A stretch of 42,423 nt of DNA from Thermoproteota archaeon (lineage in GTDB: Archaea > Thermoproteota > Bathyarchaeia > RBG-16-48-13 > GCA-020355125), in the NCBI GenBank assembly GCA_030837285.1, contig JAUPKU010000122.1, positions 1 through 42,423 of the forward strand, read 5' to 3'. Positions 24,504-27,114 of this stretch are shown in pieces. The notes below the pieces were generated by a model. That model saw only the letters and a list, made by a program, of their open reading frames with translations. It was not told the origin of the DNA and searched no databases. The translations under genes were made by a program, and so were the position numbers. The stretch's first letter is position 1, and the number at the start of each line of letters is the position of its first letter.

Positions 24504-25043
24504 TCATAAATAACTTGAACTATTTTTTAAAAAAAAGGCTTTTACATGCTGTCTTGTTAGGTAATAGACAATTAACCCGTTTAATATTATAGATACTACT
24601 CCCTGTGGAAGTGCAAGCAGACCAAGTAGTATTTCAAGTACCGCGAAGACCATGCCGACCGTCCATGCCCATCCGCTCCCAATCCAGTAGCCATAGGCTA
24701 TAACGAAGTTTATCAGTCCAATTATCACCAGTACACCACCTATAATCCCCAAGACTGCACCTGAAATGCCAGCGAAAATTGGAAAATCAGCGGCTCTAAA
24801 ACCAGTTCCCAGTATAACTGCAGCTAAAAGTACTAGTGTTCCTAATCCAAGAAAGATAAGTCCGCCTAAGACGTTTAGAGCTGCAATTATTGTTATACCA
24901 GTTGGTCTCTGAGTGATTCTTTCTGGCCCACTTGGTACTTGAGGAAGAGGTTTTATTGTCGAAGCTATTAATGCGTGTCCGCAATTAGGACAGAAACTAG
25001 CTTCTTCGTTTACCTCAGTCCCACATCTTGGACAGAAAGGCAT
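24504..25043 (-). CDS. Zinc-ribbon membrane protein
   Basis: N-terminal CPRCGTEVNEEASFCPNCG followed by about four TM segments. Confidence 0.8.
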   Translation of the reverse strand: MPFCPRCGTEVNEEASFCPNCGHALIASTIKPLPQVPSGPERITQRPTGITIIAALNVLGGLIFLGLGTLVLLAAVILGTGFRAADFPIFAGISGAVLGIIGGVLVIIGLINFVIAYGYWIGSGWAWTVGMVFAVLEILLGLLALPQGVVSIILNGLIVYYLTRQHVKAFFLKNSSSYL

Positions 25044-25119
25044 TATAGATACCTACTTATTTTGCTGGTTCTTTTCAAAGGAAAAGGGGAAAGTTTTTTC
25101 ATGACTTGCACTTGTTTAA

Positions 25120-26178
25120 CTATAGTTTTTCTCCGCAATTGCCACAAAACTTAGTTCCTACTTGATACGGTGTTCCGCATTTAGGACATTTAAGTTCAAC
25201 TGATTGAAGGAGTTTTCCGCAGTTTCCACAGAACTTCATGGTTTCGGGATTATCAGCTTGGCAGTTAGGACATTTTATTGTACGAGCAGGCATTAAACTG
25301 GTACCACAGTTTCCGCAAAACTTTTGTCCAACGCGATTCTGACTTCCACATTTGGAGCAGATCACCACCTGCTGTGGCTGAGTTTCTGGCTGGGCAGCCC
25401 TCATCATTTGAGCACCCAATGAAAGGCCTAATCCTGCTCCTAATCCAGCGCCGGCTGCACCTCCATCAGCGGGCAGAACAGCAGCTGTTTCTTTGGCATA
25501 CTGCATAGCCATAGCCTGCTGACCTACTCCCGAAGCGAATCTTCTAGCTTCCTCAGGTATTGTCACACCTTCGAATACTGTATCGACTATGGTAAGGCCT
25601 ACTCTTCGAGCTTCATTATTAATAACTAATGCGACTTTATCAGTGGTTTCATCGACATTTTTAACTAATGATGCAGTGTCGTAATCAGCGAATGCGTCGA
25701 TAACTCTTTCGATTACAAAACCCCGAATATAGTTCTCAATGTCGGCTGAGGTACTTGCGTTTCGGTTGCCAAAGAATTCTGTTACAAATAGGCGAGGATC
25801 CTCCACTTTATAGAGAGAATAGCCGAAGAAGCCTATCTCTGCTTGGTATTGAATCTGACCGCTGGGGGCTGAATATGCTTTACCACCGAAGTTGGCGCGC
25901 ATCTGACTGTTGCTAACGAAGATTACTTCGCATTCGAATATATTTCCAATTAGTCTAAGACGTTGGAGCAGGTCCGTCAGAAGAGGAACATTATTGCTGG
26001 ATATTGTGTGACGACCGGGACCAAAGATATCTAGAGCTTTTCCATCTCTGAAGAAGACCGCCCACTGGTTTTCCATAACAATAACCTGGCTGCCAAATCT
26101 CAATGAGACGTTTGGATATCTGACTGCTATTTGGTCAGGTGTGGCATTTTGCCATGATATAGCTTCAACTAAGGGCAT
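25120..26178 (-). CDS. SPFH-domain protein ('virion core protein'-like family) with three C-terminal zinc ribbons
   Basis: DQIAVRYPNVSLRFGSQVIVMENQWAVFFRDGKALDIFGPGRHTISSNNVPLL; Gly/Ala-rich linker; CSKCGSQNRVGQKFCGNCG, CPNCQADNPETMKFCGNCG, CPKCGTPYQVGTKFCGNCG. Confidence 0.88.
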   Translation of the reverse strand: MPLVEAISWQNATPDQIAVRYPNVSLRFGSQVIVMENQWAVFFRDGKALDIFGPGRHTISSNNVPLLTDLLQRLRLIGNIFECEVIFVSNSQMRANFGGKAYSAPSGQIQYQAEIGFFGYSLYKVEDPRLFVTEFFGNRNASTSADIENYIRGFVIERVIDAFADYDTASLVKNVDETTDKVALVINNEARRVGLTIVDTVFEGVTIPEEARRFASGVGQQAMAMQYAKETAAVLPADGGAAGAGLGAGLGLSLGAQMMRAAQPETQPQQVVICSKCGSQNRVGQKFCGNCGTSLMPARTIKCPNCQADNPETMKFCGNCGKLLQSVELKCPKCGTPYQVGTKFCGNCGEKL

Positions 26179-26190
26179 TTCTTTTTCCTC

Positions 26191-26736
26191 CTAAATTTCT
26201 TTTGACCTGAAATATTTTTCTCGCTCCTTCCATCTTTTCTCTGCACCATCAACAGCTGTTTTTACGTTATCAACACTGTCTGATACTGCTTTCCAATCCT
26301 TTGAATTAAGACTTTTTGCGACGTTATCCTCTGATTCACCTATGCGATCCAAATACTCAGCGAACTCTTTATCGAAATTGAAGACTCTTGCAAGCTCGGT
26401 TTCTCTTATATGACCTGACCTGTTGAACAGGGGTGCGTAACCGTACGTGCCTCTGTTAACCTGCTCCTTAATTATGTCAATGGCCTGAGTCACATTCTTG
26501 AATTTTCGATTAAGCGATGGTTGATTAGACTCAAGTACTTCTAGATAGAGTTCTTGCCATCTCTGGCGGAGGCTGGATATCTCTTTATTATAGTCTTCTC
26601 GTAAGCGCATGTCAAATTCTTTCAAGTCTTCCCTTGTACCTTTTCCAAAGAGAATAATGTCCTGTATTTTGGTTAATATGCTCTGTTTTGACTTGACTTT
26701 ATCAATCGTCTCTCTTTCACTCAAATTAATCACCAA
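26191..26736 (-). CDS. Coiled-coil protein, probably functionally linked to the SPFH protein
   Basis: 181-aa charged helical ORF, co-directional and 12 bp upstream of the SPFH gene. Confidence 0.65.
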   Translation of the reverse strand: MVINLSERETIDKVKSKQSILTKIQDIILFGKGTREDLKEFDMRLREDYNKEISSLRQRWQELYLEVLESNQPSLNRKFKNVTQAIDIIKEQVNRGTYGYAPLFNRSGHIRETELARVFNFDKEFAEYLDRIGESEDNVAKSLNSKDWKAVSDSVDNVKTAVDGAEKRWKEREKYFRSKEI

Positions 26737-26895
26737 CGATTAATGGAAGGTGAGAATTATTATCCCGCAGTATTTAAAATGTAAAGTCGGACTCCTATAA
26801 ATCTCCTTTGTATGGAACAAGATGCAACTTAGATAATGAACTAGAACTGGCAGAAACGCGAACTGTACAATTCATAAGTTTTAAATTATCACGTC

Positions 26896-27114
26896 TTGAC
26901 TACAGAAGAGTCACTTGACATCCCGCAAGAAGATGGTATTATGAGTACTAGTTTGATTAAGTGCCCTTATTGTAGTTCTGTTGTCGTCACTTCCGTTGGG
27001 TCGGATAAATACAAGTGCGCTCATTGCTATGCTCTTTTTCAGCTCATAAGACCTGACCTGATGTCCGGAGAATTTACATTGTTGAACACAACTGTCCAAG
27101 CTGGCGCGCGCTAA
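26896..27114 (+). CDS. Small zinc-ribbon protein, TTG start, divergent from the SPFH cluster
   Basis: CPYCSSVVVTSVGSDKYKCAHC in a 72-aa ORF. Confidence 0.65.
   Translation: MTTEESLDIPQEDGIMSTSLIKCPYCSSVVVTSVGSDKYKCAHCYALFQLIRPDLMSGEFTLLNTTVQAGAR

Follow-up and report, generated by a model that had tools for sequence, protein, structure and literature searches.

A linked gene pair for a predicted helical protein and a YdjI-type SPFH zinc-ribbon protein in Thermoproteota and other archaea

The window analysed here, a 42,423-nucleotide contig (G000:C278) in the MAG of a Thermoproteota archaeon (2.74 Mb, 89% complete, 4% contamination) whose class also includes Bathyarchaeota, encodes a small, predicted helical protein, referred to as CC, directly ahead of an SPFH protein with C-terminal zinc ribbons. 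The two genes are paired far beyond chance in archaeal genomes, and because this linkage is strong and PspA is nearly absent from the phylum, the pair seems to correspond to the Bacillus PspA-YdjGHI module minus PspA. It probably serves as an SPFH scaffold at the membrane surface, to which the helical protein is an obligate partner. The pair offers a concrete means of asking how a mostly PspA-less phylum organises or repairs its membranes, and supplies an uncharacterised protein family with a partner that can be tested.

Gene organisation and the SPFH protein

Three co-directional genes had been proposed at this locus in an earlier sequence-only reading, and the minus-strand ORFs are present at 24504-25043, 25120-26178 and 26191-26736, transcribed in the order helical-protein ORF (26736-26191), SPFH gene (26178-25120) and zinc-ribbon TM gene (25043-24504). 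The features of the locus, with the basis for each in brackets, are:

26770..26779, minus strand: possible archaeal TATA box TTTTAAATAC 5′ of the CC gene (sequence inspection)
26729..26734, minus strand: possible Shine-Dalgarno GGTGAT for the CC start at 26724 (sequence)
26191..26724, minus strand: putative helical partner protein CC, ~177 aa (NF047596 match, linkage in relatives, motifs, AF2 model)
26187..26192, minus strand: predicted Shine-Dalgarno AGGAGG for the SPFH gene, sharing bases with the CC stop codon (sequence)
25120..26178, minus strand: SPFH (Band_7_1, YdjI-type) protein with three C-terminal zinc ribbons, 352 aa (Pfam, AF2 fold match)
25540..26109, minus strand: SPFH domain, residues 24-213 (PF13421 match coordinates)
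25372..25479, minus strand: Gly/Ala-rich low-confidence linker, residues 234-269 (pLDDT <50; GAGLGAG kept in relatives)
25294..25359, minus strand: zinc ribbon 1, C274-C291 (PF13240/PF12773; cysteines invariant in 23 relatives)
25207..25272, minus strand: zinc ribbon 2, C303-C320 (Pfam scan and alignment of relatives)
25129..25188, minus strand: zinc ribbon 3, C331-C348 (Pfam scan and alignment; present in only some relatives)
24504..25043, minus strand: zinc-ribbon multi-TM protein, 179 aa (PF13240, 1.3e-9)

The CC ORF is open to 26736 (181 aa); the start is probably the TTG at 26724 rather than 26736, since relatives begin with MSERE or MAERE. The gap between CC and the SPFH gene is 12 bp, and lies between -1 and 16 bp in nearly all relatives; this short gap and the overlap of the AGGAGG with the CC stop codon suggest that translation of the two genes is coupled. 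The zinc-ribbon TM gene starts 76 bp past the SPFH gene on the same strand. Upstream of the pair, a small divergent ORF (26896-27114, plus strand) encodes 72 aa with a zinc-ribbon-like CPYC..CAHC motif and a weak LITAF-like match.

In a Pfam scan, the SPFH protein matches PF13421 (Band_7_1) at 1.1e-21 and 77.9 bits, where the gathering score is 24, with a weaker match to PF01145 (Band_7; 1.1e-11) and further matches to DZR (5.1e-22) and Zn_Ribbon_1, placing it by sequence in the YdjI type. The same profile, PF13421, also finds members in the control genomes of B. subtilis, L. lactis, S. acidocaldarius and M. acetivorans. A simple hydropathy scan detected no TM segment in the protein (maximum 1.15). 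Its AF2 model, built from shallow alignments with a mean pLDDT of 73.9, matches the structures of prohibitin, stomatin, QmcA and HflK/C with E values down to 2e-9, and the SPFH half is connected to the ribbon half by the Gly/Ala-rich linker. Elsewhere in the same genome, a separate stomatin-type SPFH gene is followed by a gene for a 6-TM protein in an NfeD-like arrangement (L002; G000:C192).

The expectation of an SPFH protein with three C-terminal zinc ribbons is borne out by the PF13421 match and by 12 of 12 cysteines in place. Their description as near-identical was too strong; pairwise identities are 11/25, 14/23 and 12/23 (44-61%), and the KFCGNCG core is the only part common to all three. 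Two to three ribbons are ordinary for the family, with two found in 92 and three in 18 of 126 paired relatives. At two loci (L074 and L083) the SPFH protein has no zinc ribbons, yet CC and a small TM protein are still encoded, which suggests that the ribbons are dispensable.

Linkage, distribution and recurrent neighbours of the pair

The helical gene was found in 39 genomes among 100 relatives, and in all 30 of the class loci retrieved it directly precedes the SPFH gene on the same strand. Most of the genomes are MAGs, and co-occurrence counts depend on profile thresholds; counted in this way, a 300-genome sample of the phylum contains the helical family in 152 genomes and some Band_7_1 match in 222. 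Among the matches listed, CC lies upstream on the same strand at less than 300 bp for 122 of 147 Band_7_1 genes, and within ~6 kb for a further 18. Strong Band_7_1 matches, defined as 69 bits or more, occur among the matches listed in 123 genomes of the sample, every one of which encodes CC (zero without it). For these listed strong matches, CC is adjacent upstream on the same strand in 114, one gene away in 7, ~3 kb off in 1 and on another contig in 1. Chance co-location of the two genes is ruled out by the 30 class loci together with these phylum counts. Pairwise distances of CC and SPFH proteins correlate at r = 0.87 over 76 loci, as expected from co-inheritance, but shared descent alone can give the same value. 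Named loci include Bathyarchaeota, Hadarchaeum, Geothermarchaeota and an ainarchaeum, and the pair therefore reaches beyond one phylum. No relatives of the pair were matched on plasmids. A literature search found no paper on the CC-SPFH pair and did not find COG4260 named.

An antiviral or conflict system is barely credible as the function of this locus. Its multi-component membrane architecture is the one feature in keeping with such a system; against this, there is no significant PADLOC match (only a partial one at 0.0037), the annotated neighbours of the pair in the window resemble housekeeping genes, and the pair, carried by roughly half of the sampled phylum genomes and diverging in parallel, does not behave like a patchy island. 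Searches of defence and phage libraries returned nothing relevant.

Clustering of 137 neighbourhoods of the pair, with TM counts from a simple hydropathy scan, revealed two recurrent same-strand families: a zinc-ribbon protein (c2; ~250 aa or, where it has 2 TM, ~320 aa) and a small 4-TM protein (c3 and c21, joined by hhalign at 96.8%) that is found beside the pair in many genomes. The usual order in Bathyarchaeota is c2, CC, SPFH, c3; in the window's closest relatives, a gene for a coiled-coil/zinc-ribbon protein (c37) stands just upstream of CC instead. The partners are present in the source genome but scattered. The 4-TM gene is unlinked to the pair there and in close relatives, the source genome holding a lone 115-aa member at L237:5631-5978 (G000:C255; 1.6e-17), and a c37 homologue with 68% identity, also unlinked, is located at L238:5035-6069 (G000:C189). 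Besides a C-terminal zinc ribbon, this homologue has a helical region and a stretch that may be GRAM/PH-like, and it is divergent from an ABC transporter operon; c2 was not found in the source genome.

These neighbours also bear on a role in protein quality control, with the module acting as a chaperone or adaptor whose ribbons recruit substrates or an ATPase, and not as a stress-repair scaffold. HflK/C and prohibitin serve FtsH/AAA proteases, and prohibitin, stomatin and HflK/C complexes are the best fold matches of the SPFH protein; zinc ribbons, moreover, are common protein-docking modules. However, no protease or AAA ATPase was recognised among the annotated recurrent clusters beside the pair, and we consider this role unlikely.

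The third gene of the window was read as encoding a zinc-ribbon four-TM protein, in agreement with the single N-terminal zinc ribbon and the ~4-5 hydrophobic segments found in a crude hydropathy scan. One explanation of its position is that all three window genes form a single operon in which this protein is the local anchor, replacing the small 4-TM protein: it shares the strand of the pair, follows after the 76-bp gap and occupies the downstream slot where relatives carry the small 4-TM gene. However, the gene does not adjoin the pair in the other 29 relatives, its homologues are widespread in the class on contigs other than those of the pair, one genome (G002) has two good homologues and lacks the pair, and the usual 4-TM family member sits elsewhere in the source genome. 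In an hhalign comparison in which one side was a single sequence, the protein showed no detectable relationship to the small 4-TM family. The single-operon explanation is thus rather unlikely, and the zinc-ribbon TM gene is a neighbour, possibly through chance, and not a conserved member of the unit; by analogy of position, its product may still be a local substitute anchor. Of the three-gene cluster proposed in the sequence-only reading, neighbourhood analysis retains the CC-SPFH pair and leaves out the zinc-ribbon TM gene, whose homologues are found elsewhere.

The helical protein and a proposed role for the module

The description of CC as a coiled-coil protein holds insofar as the prediction is all-helical, and is better replaced by that of a four-helix protein with a YGY motif conserved at its centre. 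Built from shallow alignments, its AF2 model (mean pLDDT 84) contains four main helices at residues 35-69, 73-94, 112-144 and 148-179, and an alignment of 23 members conserves an N-terminal G..T/KE.L/RRE.D motif along with the YGY. A full-length match to NF047596 (NCBIfam LIMLP_15305) was obtained at 4.7e-6, aligning residues 10-176 to model positions 7-173; its score of 26.6 bits, and those of relatives up to 58.9 bits (5.7e-16), fall below the curated cut-off of 210 bits. The CC sequence has no significant match among solved structures. CC appears to be an uncharacterised helical family with nothing marking it as PspA, since its Pfam scan gave nothing convincing, its NCBIfam match is below cut-off and its model has no significant fold match in the PDB, the best being E 0.16 with BAR and other helical proteins at the top.

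CC was also considered as a PspA/Snf7 homologue, a candidate rejected because Pfam and fold comparisons are both negative. In hhalign, CC matched neither archaeal Snf7 nor E. coli PspA, but the Snf7-PspA positive control was likewise unmatched, so this comparison carries no weight. It is distinctly improbable that CC is a highly diverged PspA/ESCRT-III protein, which would turn the locus into an archaeal version of a genuine Psp module. CC does occupy the position that PspA has beside a YdjI-type SPFH gene, is predicted to be all-helical with long helical hairpins, and has a CdvB2 filament among its weak fold matches (E 0.70); however, neither PspA nor Snf7 appears among the 25 most frequent Pfam families matched by the 23 CC family members, no fold match falls below E 0.16, and ESCRT-III-like genes occur separately in the source genome, on other contigs (weak matches). 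PspA itself (PF04012) has no match in CC or in the source genome, is found in none of 81 class genomes and exceeds the cut-off in 6 of 300 phylum genomes. A single genome (G295) has both PspA and the pair, on different contigs.

The reading that we prefer, and regard as modestly probable, has a two-gene module at its core, in which a membrane SPFH scaffold acts with a helical partner, ribbons that dock other proteins and a membrane anchor protein. CC would be translated immediately ahead of the YdjI-type SPFH protein as its dedicated helical-bundle partner, and the SPFH domains would assemble on the cytoplasmic side of the membrane as an oligomeric ring or patch. Because the SPFH protein has no TM segment, a membrane partner would be needed to hold it there, in relatives presumably the small 4-TM protein whose gene adjoins the pair. 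CC would bind the SPFH oligomer where PspA sits in the Bacillus module, and the zinc ribbons would dock partner proteins. Such a complex, once recruited to the membrane, may function in membrane organisation or surveillance. More tentatively, and with some doubt, Thermoproteota-type archaea may possess a PspA-independent SPFH system with a helical-bundle effector for membrane remodelling or repair, a 4-TM anchor and zinc-ribbon adaptors, replacing the Psp response; the effector role is assigned to CC by gene position only, as its four-helix model has no significant PDB match.

Comparison with known systems

The SPFH protein shares its fold with the ring-forming stomatin, prohibitin, HflK/C and flotillin proteins. 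Unlike these, it has neither an N-terminal TM segment nor a long coiled-coil C-terminus and carries zinc ribbons instead, and the loci of the pair that were read show no NfeD or FtsH linkage. For CC, the nearest named family is LIMLP_15305 of Leptospira, with full-length alignment but only 25-59 bits against the cut-off of 210; the one mention of it found in the literature is as the gene next to a non-coding RNA, in a list from the Leptospira peroxide response.

Archaeal Meth_adaptin ESCRT loci combine SPFH, coiled-coil and zinc-ribbon proteins with Vps4, ESCRT-III and adaptin-like genes (PMC10936438). An archaeal SPFH protein with a zinc ribbon is common to both, whereas Vps4, ESCRT-III and adaptin-like genes were not recognised beside the pair in the window. 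At two other loci, zinc-ribbon proteins adjoining the pair (L064:5584-7047 and L010:2125-2694) have a weak Arrestin_N match, the former fused to the c2 domain, and are reminiscent of adaptin/arrestin-type trafficking modules.

In B. subtilis, YdjI, which in turn requires YdjG and YdjH, brings PspA to the membrane (PMC8581546), and Ravi et al. described a ydjFGHL operon with band-7 plus ZnR (PMC11237479). The analogy drawn from sequence to YdjFGHI neighbourhoods stands for the SPFH protein, which belongs to the same Pfam family as the B. subtilis member, and fails for a PspA-like coiled coil. It also stands for the general plan, in that relatives encode helical, SPFH-ZnR, zinc-ribbon and small TM proteins. 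It breaks down at the particular zinc-ribbon TM gene of the window, which is adjacent and not conserved with the pair; zinc-ribbon proteins, some with 2 TM, are conserved beside the pair in relatives. No TPM-domain counterpart of YdjH was found among the window neighbours or the scanned neighbours in relatives, where small 4-TM proteins occur. The pair thus differs from PspA-YdjGHI in that CC is not PspA by Pfam or fold search, in a phylum where PspA is nearly absent, and in that the membrane and zinc-ribbon partners are encoded away from the pair in the source genome. It resembles the Bacillus module in the Band_7_1 SPFH protein with a C-terminal zinc ribbon and no TM segment, in the helical gene coming first, and in the zinc-ribbon and TM proteins of the operons in relatives. 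SPFH-zinc-ribbon proteins have been regarded as recruiting PspA; in this phylum, proteins of that SPFH type are retained alongside another helical partner.
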